Source of the DNA: a virus
Strand: one strand, 5' to 3'
Virus record (IMG/VR): IMGVR_UViG_3300042197_000101
Coordinates: 1 to 36,048 of that record
DNA length: 36,048 nt
Shown: positions 15,591 to 22,157 of the stretch, one piece after another
How the letters are laid out: the number at the start of each line of letters is the position of its first letter
How positions within the stretch are numbered: the stretch's first letter is position 1
Position numbers and translations under genes: made by a program
The notes under the pieces: generated by a model
The model's database searches: none
Seen by the model: the letters and a program-made list of their open reading frames with translations, nothing else
Told to the model about the DNA's origin: nothing

Positions 15591-16238
15591 TCACCTCCTA
15601 AAGTGAAAGCAACCACAGGCATAGGGCAAATCTAGCGGAGTCGGTTCTGTGTAATACGGCATCTGCCCGTTATTGGGTATTAGGTAGAACTCGCAGGAAA
15701 ACTCCGAGAACAGTTTTTGTATATACGCTGGGCAGTAAACCCGATGGGCGTTGAAGTAAGCCACGGGTCTCCCAACAGGTACAACAAAGAGCAAGTCCTT
15801 CTTCGCCATCTTCTTGAGGTTCTCAATCGCCTTGAGGTCGCCTTCGTTATCGAGCGTATCCCCGTACCTTCCGAGTCCTATGTGCTCGACTACATGAAGG
15901 CAGGACAGGCTCTCAAATTCCCCCACAACTTCGTTTGCCAGATCAATACTCGCAAGGCTTAACCCTTCGACTTTAAGTCTGGGGACTCTGTAGTCCATAT
16001 AAGTCGTTGGGTAGTAAGCCGCCAGAGAAGTACAGAAGTGCAAAGACGAGCCTATGTCGTAGTGGTGGGATGGGTTTATCTCTTTGACCTTACGCATAGC
16101 CCAGGCAACATGGTAGATGTAATGCTCATCAAACCCGTGTGAGGTATCATCTCCTAAGCAAGGGAAAGATTGCAGGGGGAACCTTTTTTCTTTTTTTGCG
16201 AAATCCCTCGCTTGAGAGATGTATTCTTCTTCTGTCAT
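15591..16238 (-). CDS. DUF268-family, methyltransferase-like protein
   Basis: The 215-residue product matches DUF268. HHYDIGSSLHFCTSL is a Rossmann-like first strand and loop, MDYRVPRL follows, and SCLHVVEHIGLGRYGDTLD is the hallmark. FVVPVG-x-PVAYFNAHRVY comes later. The family resembles SAM-dependent methyltransferases and is usually found with glycosyltransferases in polysaccharide loci. It is therefore out of place in a replication operon, yet it is joined to the P-like gene by ATGA. It may modify a host surface glycan together with the phage glycosyltransferases, which is inference. Confidence 0.75.
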   Translation of the reverse strand: MTEEEYISQARDFAKKEKRFPLQSFPCLGDDTSHGFDEHYIYHVAWAMRKVKEINPSHHYDIGSSLHFCTSLAAYYPTTYMDYRVPRLKVEGLSLASIDLANEVVGEFESLSCLHVVEHIGLGRYGDTLDNEGDLKAIENLKKMAKKDLLFVVPVGRPVAYFNAHRVYCPAYIQKLFSEFSCEFYLIPNNGQMPYYTEPTPLDLPYACGCFHFRR

Positions 16239-16540
16239 TTCAAAACCTCCAGCAGCTTTGCCCTTTTTTCTTGGTTGACTTGTGGCCTGTAGGTCAGTCT
16301 ATGAGCCTCTAAGTAAACGGGTGCGTGTTGGCACAAAGACTTGAACTGGATCAGGTTCGGTGGCCTCTCCGGTAGGTTATCCAGAGCGTGTTTTATTTGC
16401 TCCACCTTAAAGCCAGATAGTTCTGCCGCCCATGCTCCCTTGGTTTCTTGAATTGGTCTTCCATCCCACTTCTTCGACCACTCCGACCCGTAGACCATAA
16501 ACATCTTGTCGAACAACGCATCAATAATTTTTTGGTTCAT
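16235..16540 (-). CDS. P-like replication protein (helicase-loader family)
   Basis: The 101-residue product opens MNQKIIDALFDKMFMVYGSE, continues TKGAWAAELSGFKVEQIKHA and LDNLPERPPNLIQFKSLC, the pattern of short replication protein P homologues in proteobacterial phages. Lambda P loads host DnaB helicase at the O-bound origin. This version is under half the length of lambda P and holds only the central helical part. It is joined by ATGA to the O-like gene, exactly the lambda O-P order. Confidence 0.7.
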   Translation of the reverse strand: MNQKIIDALFDKMFMVYGSEWSKKWDGRPIQETKGAWAAELSGFKVEQIKHALDNLPERPPNLIQFKSLCQHAPVYLEAHRLTYRPQVNQEKRAKLLEVLK

Positions 16541-17274
16541 TTCAACAACTCCCAGGCAGGGGCAGAAACAACATCATCTTCGGGCCAGGGTCGCCCCGTC
16601 ATCTCCTCGTACTTCTTCCTCTTGAGAATTTCATCCCTCTCGGCAAACGATAACTTCTGTGTAGATAACTTGTCTACCCATTCAGCTTTGAACCCGATCC
16701 ATCCCCTGGCTGCACACTCACTCAATGCCTTCTCTAAAGACCAACCCGCCTTCCCCGCCTCCTTCTCGATGGCTGTTAAAGCCGTAGCAGTCAGAGGGCT
16801 ACGCTTTGCCTTCCTGACCGCTAGGTAGTCATTCCACACTTGCAAAGAAATGCCTTCTGGACATACAGGCGCACTTGTGCGCTTCTCTTGTATTTGGTTA
16901 TTGGTTACTGGTTTATGGTTATTGGTTAGCTTTCCACTGGGTTCCGACTGGGAACCGACTGGGTTTTTAGGTCTGCCCCCTGCCTTGCCATTGGCTCTGG
17001 CTCTATCTGCCATGCGATGGTACTCACGAATCTCCTCGTCGCATCGGTCGTGAATCCAGCCGTTTTCTGTCTCCACAAACATATCTTGAAGGACTGTAGC
17101 AACCACTTCGGAACCAACTCGTATCCGCCTTGCAACCCAGTCGGTTTCTAGTGGGATAGGCTTTTCGGTGTCGTAATACATATCGAGCAGCCGTCGATAC
17201 GCCAAGTCTTCTTCGTTTGATAGATGGGCCGTGGCTGACTTGTAGTCGCCTATGTGGAATCTGTAGAAATGCAT
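16537..17274 (-). CDS. DUF1376 (O-like) replication initiator
   Basis: The product has 245 residues. Residues 1-95 are a DUF1376/YdaU domain (FHIGDYKSATAHLSNEEDLA, YRRLLDMYYDTEKPIP), a winged-helix-like domain found at phage origins. A polar linker (about 95-130) is encoded by the tandem repeats described separately. A C-terminal domain (about 138-245) carries LQVWNDYLAVRKAKRSPLT and ends in a charged tail. AAGGAGAG precedes the ATG. It would bind the origin inside its own gene, as lambda O does, and hand over to the P-like loader. Confidence 0.8.
   Translation of the reverse strand: MHFYRFHIGDYKSATAHLSNEEDLAYRRLLDMYYDTEKPIPLETDWVARRIRVGSEVVATVLQDMFVETENGWIHDRCDEEIREYHRMADRARANGKAGGRPKNPVGSQSEPSGKLTNNHKPVTNNQIQEKRTSAPVCPEGISLQVWNDYLAVRKAKRSPLTATALTAIEKEAGKAGWSLEKALSECAARGWIGFKAEWVDKLSTQKLSFAERDEILKRKKYEEMTGRPWPEDDVVSAPAWELLK
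16894..16928. repeat. Five tandem 7-bp iterons (TTGGTTA)
   Basis: The 35 bases divide exactly into TTGGTTA, TTGGTTA, CTGGTTT, ATGGTTA, TTGGTTA. They lie in the linker of the O-like initiator gene, where lambda O also carries its origin. A candidate initiator-binding array. Confidence 0.75.
16936..16968. repeat. Three tandem 11-bp iterons (ACTGGGNNCCG)
   Basis: ACTGGGTTCCG, ACTGGGAACCG and ACTGGGTTTTT follow one another without a gap, eight bases from the 7-bp array. The last copy is degenerate after the sixth base. Together with the first array they make a probable origin of about 75 bp. Confidence 0.65.
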
Positions 17275-17305
17275 AAACTCTCCTTTTCTTCTCCTCTTTT
17301 AAGAA

Positions 17306-17364
17306 GTTGCGGCAGACGGAAAAAGGAGAGAAACCGCCTATTCGGGAGCTACCCTAGCCGCAAC
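17306..17364 (-). promoter_or_regulatory. Structured leader before the initiator gene
   Basis: On the minus strand GTTGCGGC (17364-17357) can pair with GCCGCAAC (17313-17306), enclosing a GGGTAGCTCCC hairpin. The structure lies between the nuclease gene at 17374 and the initiator at 17274 and is followed by TTCTT. It could be an attenuator or a translational control element. This is based only on complementarity. Confidence 0.4.
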
Positions 17365-17373
17365 GAGCAGAGA

Positions 17374-17703
17374 CTATTCTATATTCGATTCCGCTGTCAA
17401 CTCCACAACCCTTTGAACATATCTTCCCTTCGAGTTCTTTCGCCAGCCATGCACAAAAACCCTCCAGCCAGACTCCAACATCACAGGAAAAAATTCGCTC
17501 TCCCGTATCTTTTGTATCCGACTGGATACACCCGTAGAGGTAGTCTGCACCGCCCAGGTCTCCCCATTCCCAATGGCTAAAATGTCTATACACCCGTAGA
17601 GGTCAACCCTCTTGCGGGAGAAGGAATTGAAGTATTCCACTATCCAGGGCTTCATGCCTTGGTTGCGTATGTACTCTAAAGACCGCTGGGTCGGGGATGC
17701 CAT
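17374..17703 (-). CDS. Divergent restriction-endonuclease-like protein
   Basis: The 109-residue first gene of the leftward operon has the outline of a small VRR-NUC/Hjc-like fold. An N-terminal helix with Glu10 comes first, then VDLYGCIDILAIGNGETWAV with Asp40, then QTTS where an ExK motif would be expected. A C-terminal beta region contains RVFVHGWRKN. The Gln53-Thr-Thr replacement suggests a changed or lost catalytic site, so it could be a DNA-binding or structural relative. Two copies of a 16-bp repeat lie inside it. It has no Shine-Dalgarno site, and TATAAA lies only six bases before the ATG. Confidence 0.6.
   Translation of the reverse strand: MASPTQRSLEYIRNQGMKPWIVEYFNSFSRKRVDLYGCIDILAIGNGETWAVQTTSTGVSSRIQKIRESEFFPVMLESGWRVFVHGWRKNSKGRYVQRVVELTAESNIE
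17526..17541. repeat. 16-bp direct repeat, copy 1
   Basis: ATACACCCGTAGAGGT, identical to 17588-17603. Here it is read as Thr-Ser-Thr-Gly-Val on the minus strand. A shorter match (TACACCCGT) lies at 17737-17745 in the divergent control region. Confidence 0.8.
17588..17603. repeat. 16-bp direct repeat, copy 2
   Basis: ATACACCCGTAGAGGT again, but in a different reading frame of the same gene (Asp-Leu-Tyr-Gly-Cys-Ile). Conservation in two frames points to selection on the DNA itself, for example a regulator-binding site. Confidence 0.8.
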
Positions 17704-17709
17704 GTTGCA

Positions 17710-17715
17710 TTTATA
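17710..17715 (-). promoter_or_regulatory. Possible -10 element for the leftward operon (leaderless start)
   Basis: TATAAA on the minus strand sits six bases before the ATG at 17703. Transcription would then begin at or next to the start codon, giving a leaderless mRNA, which fits the lack of a Shine-Dalgarno site. No good -35 was found. Confidence 0.35.
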
Positions 17716-17746
17716 CCACTAGGGAAAGTCCTAATCTACACCCGTG

Positions 17747-17774
17747 TTGACTTCTATGTAGAGAAGTGTAGGAT
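17747..17774 (+). promoter_or_regulatory. Putative rightward early promoter
   Basis: TTGACT (17747-17752), a 16-base spacer and TAGGAT (17769-17774) resemble a sigma-70 promoter for the operon starting at 17805. The -10 box overlaps a GTGTAGGATTCT element that recurs downstream. A TACACCCGT motif ends just upstream at 17745. Confidence 0.45.
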
Positions 17775-17804
17775 TCTACTTGTAGGTTTCTTGAGGAGAT
17801 GAAG

Positions 17805-21281: not shown

Positions 21282-22157
21282 TTGAACACACCTGGCAACC
21301 CCTCCCGAATTGCTATCTACATTCCTTATAGGAACCGAGAGGAACATCTCAAGAAGATGCTCCCACACACAGTATCGTTTTTCCGCAGAAACACGAATTT
21401 AGAGCCGTTATTTATCCTCGCAGAGCAAACCGATGACTGCCCATTTAATAAAGGGGCGATCCTTAACGGGGCTTACTTTGCGACCAAAGACTTATCTGAC
21501 TACATTTGTTTCAACGATGTAGACTACTTGCCGATGTGGGCGGACTACTCAAAACCCGCTCTGCCTTCGAGGATTATCTGGTGGGGACTCCACGAAAGAC
21601 CTATGGGCCACGGAACCAATGGGGTTATTAAGGCTCAGAAACATGGGTTGGCTGCGGTCAATGTGATGACCCACCAACAGTTCCAGTCGGCTAATGGCTG
21701 GTCTAATAATTACTGGGGTTGGGGCTACGAAGACACCGACCTAGCAAAGAGACTTGAATCTGTCGGCTGGCCTATAGGCTACAAGGACGGGACATTTATC
21801 GCTCTCGACCACGACTCAAACGGATACACCCCTACAGGCCCAAGTGAGTCCTGTAAGCGCAACGAAGAAGTATTCCATAACCAGACTTACCCGAACCTGA
21901 CCGACGGACTGAGTTCCATATCTGCAAATGTGGTGAGTATTACCAATCACATGGCTAAGGGTCTGGAAGACGAAACCGCACCTTTAATCTGGTGCAAATT
22001 CAACTTAGAGGACAGTTATGCCATTCAAAAGCAAAGCGCAGGGTCGCCTGATGTACGCAGTGGCAAACAACCCGAAGCTCGGGAAGAAACTGGGAATCCC
22101 CCAGAAGGTTGCCAAGGAGATGGTGGAGAAAACCCCGTCAATGAAAAAGCTGCCTGA
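21282..22157 (+). CDS. GT7-family beta-1,4-galactosyltransferase-like enzyme
   Basis: The product has 291 residues. The first 245 match the beta4-galactosyltransferase fold: RIAIYIPYRNREEHLKKML, EQTDDCPFNKGAILNGA, the metal-binding CFNDVDYLP (Asp79-Val-Asp81) and the acceptor-site motif NNYWGWGYEDTDLAKRL. Family members use UDP-sugars and Mn2+. The start is TTG at 21282, the only start available after the upstream stop. There is no signal anchor, unlike animal homologues, so it would act in the cytoplasm. Residues 246-291 are low in complexity and lie over another gene in a different frame, so they may be a recent read-through tail. Confidence 0.85.
   Translation: MNTPGNPSRIAIYIPYRNREEHLKKMLPHTVSFFRRNTNLEPLFILAEQTDDCPFNKGAILNGAYFATKDLSDYICFNDVDYLPMWADYSKPALPSRIIWWGLHERPMGHGTNGVIKAQKHGLAAVNVMTHQQFQSANGWSNNYWGWGYEDTDLAKRLESVGWPIGYKDGTFIALDHDSNGYTPTGPSESCKRNEEVFHNQTYPNLTDGLSSISANVVSITNHMAKGLEDETAPLIWCKFNLEDSYAIQKQSAGSPDVRSGKQPEAREETGNPPEGCQGDGGENPVNEKAA

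Follow-up and report, generated by a model that had tools for sequence, protein, structure and literature searches.

Two tandem repeat arrays lie side by side within the initiator gene of an uncultured phage (IMG/VR record IMGVR_UViG_3300042197_000101), and the locus raises the question whether they form the replication origin of this phage. The window, i.e. the whole stretch of DNA that was analysed, is 36,048 nt long. The first-pass annotation had proposed an origin of the lambda type at this place. This reading held in every computational test that we made, with binding and origin activity being inferred, and we consider it highly probable that the arrays are a lambda-type replication origin inside the initiator gene, although origin activity remains untested.

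Two arrays in the linker of a DUF1376 initiator

The initiator gene (16537..17274, minus strand; 245 aa) encodes a DUF1376 N-terminal domain, a disordered linker and an O-like C-terminal domain. The DUF1376 part (17029..17271, minus strand), a predicted winged-helix-like DNA-binding domain, was recognized by Pfam (PF07120, residues 2-82, E 1.1e-25, 90.2 bits against a gathering cut-off of 30.1), and AlphaFold2 modelled residues 11-90 with a pLDDT of about 90-96. When the initiator model was searched against PDB folds, the best matches were mostly winged-helix proteins, none of them significant. In the same model (pTM 0.42), residues ~98-143 lack secondary structure, and confidence is low at 104-118 and 129-133. 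The protein matched PHROG primosomal proteins with E 5e-34, and its residues 119-205 correspond to the O-like PHROG_678 ('replication initiation O-like'; E 6e-17). From PHROG_678, PHROG_12556, the model helices and covariation with the downstream gene, we delimited a C-terminal helical domain (~residues 144-200; 16676..16845, minus strand), which is proposed to be the helicase-loader contact.

Both arrays are held by codons 103-127, between DUF1376 and the O-like C-terminal part, and encode the linker peptides NPVGSQSEPSG and TNNHKPVTNNQ; the domain boundaries given by Pfam, PHROG and AlphaFold2 agree with the linker position assigned to them at first pass. The 7-bp array (16894..16928, minus strand), the proposed unwinding or single-strand-binding array, reads ACCAATA ACCATAA ACCAGTA ACCAATA ACCAAAT on the gene strand, with the consensus ACCANNA (TNNTGGT on the plus strand), and TRF reported it at period 7 with 5.0 copies and 82% match. 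The annotation had described five units with the consensus TTGGTTA; five period-7 units are indeed present, but only three carry exactly this heptamer, the rest being CTGGTTT and ATGGTTA. The 11-bp array (16932..16968, minus strand; core CCCAGTCGG), containing the proposed initiator binding sites, reads AAAAACCCAGT CGGTTCCCAGT CGGAACCCAGT on the gene strand, and TRF placed it at 16932-16965 (period 11, 3.2 copies). Its approximately three units were described correctly, except that ACTGGGNNCCG is exact in two only and the third is ACTGGGTTTTT. The gap between the arrays, given as eight bases, measured 7 (16929-16935).

Across all 36 kb of the contig, lag-7 and lag-11 matches peaked at these two arrays. 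Upon random synonymous recoding of the same peptide, the observed lag-7 score was reached in ~1 in 10,000 draws (p = 1e-4) and the lag-11 score in 0/20,000 draws (p = 5e-5). An inverted copy of the 11-bp array (87% of 23 nt) was also seen in the DUF1376 coding region at 17134-17156, in the orientation opposite to the array at 16943-16965; it may be due to chance.

The initiator gene is followed by a P-like helicase-loader gene (16235..16540, minus strand; 101 aa). The ATGA overlap reported for this junction is real (GAAATGAACC, gene strand), and the gene is, as far as can be read from this overlap, translationally coupled to the initiator. The loader match itself is weak (PHROG_109 'P-like helicase loader', E 6.7e-5; PHROG_1524, 4e-6). 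In isolates, the genes neighbouring such arrays are P, DnaC-like, DnaB-like or primase-helicase genes. Two genes are unusual cargo for a replication region: a DUF268-domain gene after the P-like gene (15591-16238) and, farther to the right, a group 7 glycosyltransferase-like gene (21282-22157).

DnaA boxes (TTWTNCACA) were found in the contig only at 22257 and 25055, and none near 16.9 kb; the lambda ori works without the need for a DnaA box. A change of GC skew near 17.6 kb was considered as an origin mark and rejected. It coincides with the switch of gene direction at 17703-17799, and the skew is uninformative on the origin because it follows gene direction. Other repeats were noted in this neighbourhood. 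Just upstream of the initiator gene, two 10-bp arms, CTCTCCTTTT and AAAAGGAGAG, form a perfect inverted repeat around a 33-nt spacer (17278-17287 / 17321-17330). An exact 13-bp direct repeat, ATACACCCGTAGA, occurs at 17526-17538 and 17588-17600, 62 bp apart, in a leftward gene, and the related CTACACCCGTG lies in the divergent intergenic region (17737-17747); ATACACCCGTAGA and CTACACCCGTG are possible operator sites.

Conservation of the 7-bp array as DNA

We gathered relatives of the initiator by protein similarity, and because of this mode of collection their codons are unbiased. The relatives are phylogenetically linked and are not independent samples, so that the counts below overstate independence.

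From the 38 distinct arrays having the motif T-x-N-[QH]-x-P (51 triplets of units), we observed that ACCA at unit positions 1-4 was invariant in 153/153 units and in all three codon phases, while positions 5-6 varied in every codon phase, even when they served as codon positions 1 and 2. Anchoring on the motif forces part of this ACCANNA invariance, but positions that are not forced, e.g. the Thr wobble C, the Pro wobble A and the first base of the free residue, were invariant too. The Thr codon was set by its position in the motif: ACC in 52/52 cases at position 1, ACT in 8/8 at position 2 and ACA in 4/4 at position 7, as compared with 187/713 for ACC elsewhere in those genes. Likewise, Asn was AAC in 52/52 cases at one site and AAT in 22/25 at the next. 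The synonymous-recoding test for the 7-bp array was passed at p<0.01 by 158/170 relatives, and nearly all the relatives seemingly without the array keep the 7-bp period as ACTANNA or ATCANNA.

We also scanned 2.9 million viral contigs (IMG/VR) with the 7-bp unit at the DNA level only, obtaining a sample of at least 120 contigs. Among the matches listed, the array lay in a sense ORF in 119/120 cases, and 116 of 120 contigs carried DUF1376 at this locus, with 2 more having truncated members, as judged by an HMM built from the DUF1376 domains of the relatives. Hundreds of related phages have this 7-bp DNA pattern in common and read it as protein in all three frames. The first-pass annotation had asked whether the DNA repeats are kept while the encoded residues drift; they are, and the drift falls exactly at the free (NN) positions. 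The case that would have refuted it, a linker peptide kept with the repeats lost, was not seen among the relatives. From such sequence patterns, selection at the DNA level is shown for both arrays.

Could the peptide rather than the DNA be the target? The TNNQxPxTNNQ motif is widespread in the DUF1376 family, as would be expected if the linker peptide were under selection and the DNA repeat a mere by-product. However, codon choice depends on the register of the array and not on the residue, the variable residues are exactly those overlapping the NN positions, and the exceptions alter residues yet keep the 7-bp DNA period, which leaves hardly any room for this explanation. It is also very improbable that the arrays are short tandem repeats without function, which persist merely because a disordered linker tolerates them. 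Perfect heptamer microsatellites do exist in the genomes of cyanobacteria and Bacteroidetes, but slippage would yield perfect copies of arbitrary units, whereas 115/120 viral arrays among the matches listed were imperfect repeats with an invariant core, and the arrays occur nearly all in one gene family, at a constant place and on a constant strand.

Matches of the 7-bp pattern in genome contigs included many cyanobacteria and Bacteroidetes with tandem runs, which we took as microsatellites and set aside. The cyanobacterial genomes among them (L203, L227, L264 and others) have long tandem ACCANNA runs that resemble microsatellites with no relation to phage initiators. Separately, two DUF1376 initiators (L609, L614) have a linker encoding NTEHTTQDTKH beside GCGAACGCAT-type repeats, which suggests another 7-bp unit, putatively AACACAN.

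Array types, domain exchange and duplex stability

Over the 70 bp on the upstream side of the 7-bp array, lag 11 scored best in 137/170 and lag 12 in 17/170 nonredundant relatives, and the lag-11 synonymous-recoding test gave p<0.01 in only 67/170. The 11-bp cores fell into several types, namely ACCCA/GTCGG, GTTCAAC, GTnnACGAA, GCGAACGCAT, AATCAGAA and CCCCCCTA, and we compared these with the basic tail of DUF1376 (GKAGGRPK, residues 96-103; codons at 16966..16989, minus strand) in a cross-table of tail motif and iteron type. ACCCA-type iterons went with a GGR[PK]K tail in 48/48 cases, GTTCAAC-type iterons with AGKASAxRR or close variants, and CCCCCCTA-type iterons mostly with GKRGAAKRW, a GGR motif being present in eight exceptions. 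The association of iteron type was strong with the basic tail (Cramer's V 0.71) as compared with the C-domain type (0.22), and similarity over the whole N-domain followed iteron similarity only weakly (Spearman 0.14). The tail classes were defined post hoc, after viewing the alignments. The YdaU-type DUF1376 proteins provide an independent check, because they were found by a different scan; 11/11 had an AG[KRQ]xSA-like tail together with GTTCAAC/GTTGAAC repeats. The match of iterons and tail is clear from these comparisons, and the type of the 11-bp array, so far as alignments can tell, goes with the DUF1376 basic tail and does not follow the C-terminal domain. The 11-bp array probably behaves like initiator-specific iterons, a statement for which we have no binding data.

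Two relatives (L006, L007) have the C-terminal domain of the reference initiator with other N-terminal domains and other 11-bp repeats, and the change in sequence falls at the array. We then compared the downstream proteins of 138 relatives, and observed that these were similar in 26.9% of the pairs sharing only the C-domain type, in 0.5% of those sharing only the N-domain and in 0.1% of other pairs. The downstream gene evidently goes with the C-domain. This match is partly expected from linkage, because neighbours are co-inherited, and the iteron-tail association is likewise partly expected from physical linkage; the informative point, at the level of sequence comparison, is the location of the breaks, between one pair and the other. 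The pattern would fit the way in which specificity is passed on in lambda, where the N-domain goes with the iterons and the C-domain with P; this rests on covariation only.

Similar arrays were present in other phage initiators. In Limnohabitans phage DC33, Pseudomonas phage AH02 and a Rac-like E. coli phage, hexamers (GAGACA, GATACA/GATAAA) occupy the equivalent place. DNA-only scans of IMG/VR located such arrays in a sense ORF in 114/120 GATANA contigs (L340-L459) and 117/119 GAGACA contigs (L460-L578), and sampled proteins matched PHROG replication initiation proteins, DnaD-like helicase loaders and replisome organizers. The hexamers encode DTDTDT or ETETET in mid-gene; upstream of them are 11-bp repeats (e.g. 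GATATCAAnnn, GCTAGCAGAnn, GTCACGnnnnn), lag 11 being the best in 82/103 GAGACA and 36/99 GATANA cases. In relatives found by protein similarity, the ETETET run used GAG for Glu in 71/71 and ACA for Thr in 74/74 codons, as against 144:94 and 65/190, respectively, outside the run. Since hexamers keep one reading frame, a peptide constraint cannot be excluded here, unlike for the 7-bp array. The RGSRLPxDW C-domain was joined to DUF1376 with ACCANNA in 9/13 cases (the other 4 had variant linkers) and to a KNW-FQH domain with GAGANA in 20/20; therefore, the array type goes with the N-domain family and not with the C-domain. One of these phages, the 39-kb DC33 (L322; PQ492659.1), is filed as Inoviridae, which its size and O-like initiator do not fit.

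It is possible, and no more than tentatively held by us, that many unrelated initiator families share one intragenic origin grammar. In this grammar, N-domain-specific 11-bp iterons would be followed by a 6/7-bp array (ACCANNA, GATANA or GAGACA), which would melt and be recognized as ssDNA, and the basic tail would set the iteron type.

We observed that the 7-bp array is a local minimum of duplex stability (z = -2.2), having 31% GC compared with 59% for the 11-bp array, and the family mean shows the same step, from about 0.50 to about 0.34 GC. In our lambda control, an AT-rich tract (31% GC) likewise came after the iterons. Unwinding depends on this tract, and single strands rich in AT are bound by O proteins (PMC7466680); in plasmids, Rep proteins recognize the AT-rich repeats on one strand, as ssDNA and in a sequence-specific manner, and the precise sequence of these repeats is important (PMC4081077). 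Following these precedents, we assigned a role in unwinding or single-strand binding to the 7-bp array. It is probably an AT-rich element of this kind, which is an inference without melting data. Both arrays had been called iterons at first pass; the term can stand for the 11-bp array, and probably not for the 7-bp array as an equal set.

Two other readings accept the arrays as DNA elements. One, which is unlikely but has to be kept in mind, is that both are double-stranded sites for two different proteins and not iterons with an unwinding region. The near constancy of the 7-bp core across differing iterons and C-domains would be natural for a shared host factor; on the other hand, this array is the AT-rich stability minimum, standing in place of the AT-rich tract of lambda, its 7-bp units, in contrast to those of the 11-bp array, do not keep step with the helical turn, and initiators with one and the same C-domain carry different array types depending on their N-domain family. 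Other DNA control functions, such as repression of the initiator operon by its own product or a hotspot of recombination at which domains are shuffled, are improbable. It is true that the domain swaps of L006 and L007 break at the array. But the arrays are inside the gene, far from the promoter and always in the linker, they occur in initiator genes adjoining helicase-loading genes, and a pure recombination site would have no need of initiator-specific 11-bp types. We prefer, over both, the reading of 11-bp iterons beside an unwinding element.

A putative lambda-type origin and its relation to known systems

How could such an origin work? The order and place of the arrays are established by the comparisons above, and the steps of binding, melting and helicase loading are inferred. 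The DUF1376 domain and its basic tail would bind the 11-bp iterons, with one initiator molecule on each turn of the helix, and this binding may strain the adjacent AT-rich ACCANNA array and lead to its melting. The melted strand would be held sequence-specifically by the initiator or by a host factor, and the C-terminal domain of the initiator would recruit the P-like loader and, through it, the DnaB helicase.

If this is right, the sequence alone would reveal the origin in very many uncultured phages, and DUF1376, a domain of unknown function, would gain a role as the half of a lambda-style initiator that binds iterons. Natural domain swaps offer ready pairs for testing which residues read which iteron, and the 7-bp array makes it testable whether the AT-rich half of an origin is merely weak DNA or a sequence-specific element. 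Were the shared grammar also true, the 'TNNQEP', 'DTDTDT' and 'ETETET' linkers of phages would be origin DNA in disguise. We found no description of DUF1376 origins in the literature searched, from which subscription journals were mostly out of scope. Intragenic origins of the lambda type are known; what appears to differ here is the 11-bp direct iterons, the 7-bp array and the DUF1376 N-terminus.

The locus resembles lambda O/P in that the iterons separate the two initiator domains, that an AT-rich tract comes immediately after them (PMC7466680), and that the helicase-loader gene is next, with a 4-base overlap. However, lambda has four 18-bp dyad iterons spaced at 20-24 bp (the lag peak in our control was at 23-24) instead of 11-bp direct repeats, its AT-rich tract lacks a 7-bp array, and the N-terminus here is DUF1376, the O-like PHROG_678 match covering residues 119-205 only. 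Because the form of the iterons and the N-terminal domain differ, the initiator falls outside the lambda O family, even though the putative origin would work, by its layout, like that of lambda.

The YdaU-YdaV pair of the E. coli Rac prophage is similar in its DUF1376 initiator, AGKAS basic tail, GTTCAA-type repeats of 11-12 bp and downstream loader-like (DnaC-like) gene; its second array, however, is a degenerate 6-bp GATAAA/GATACA and not ACCANNA. Rac carries an active origin, oriJ (PMC3945230), whose placement in ydaU is not established. In the iteron plasmids RK2 and F, iterons adjoin AT-rich repeats (PMC4081077), which serve as a model for the 7-bp array, although the plasmid repeats are 13-mers or 8-mers and lie outside the rep gene, and these plasmid origins contain DnaA boxes.
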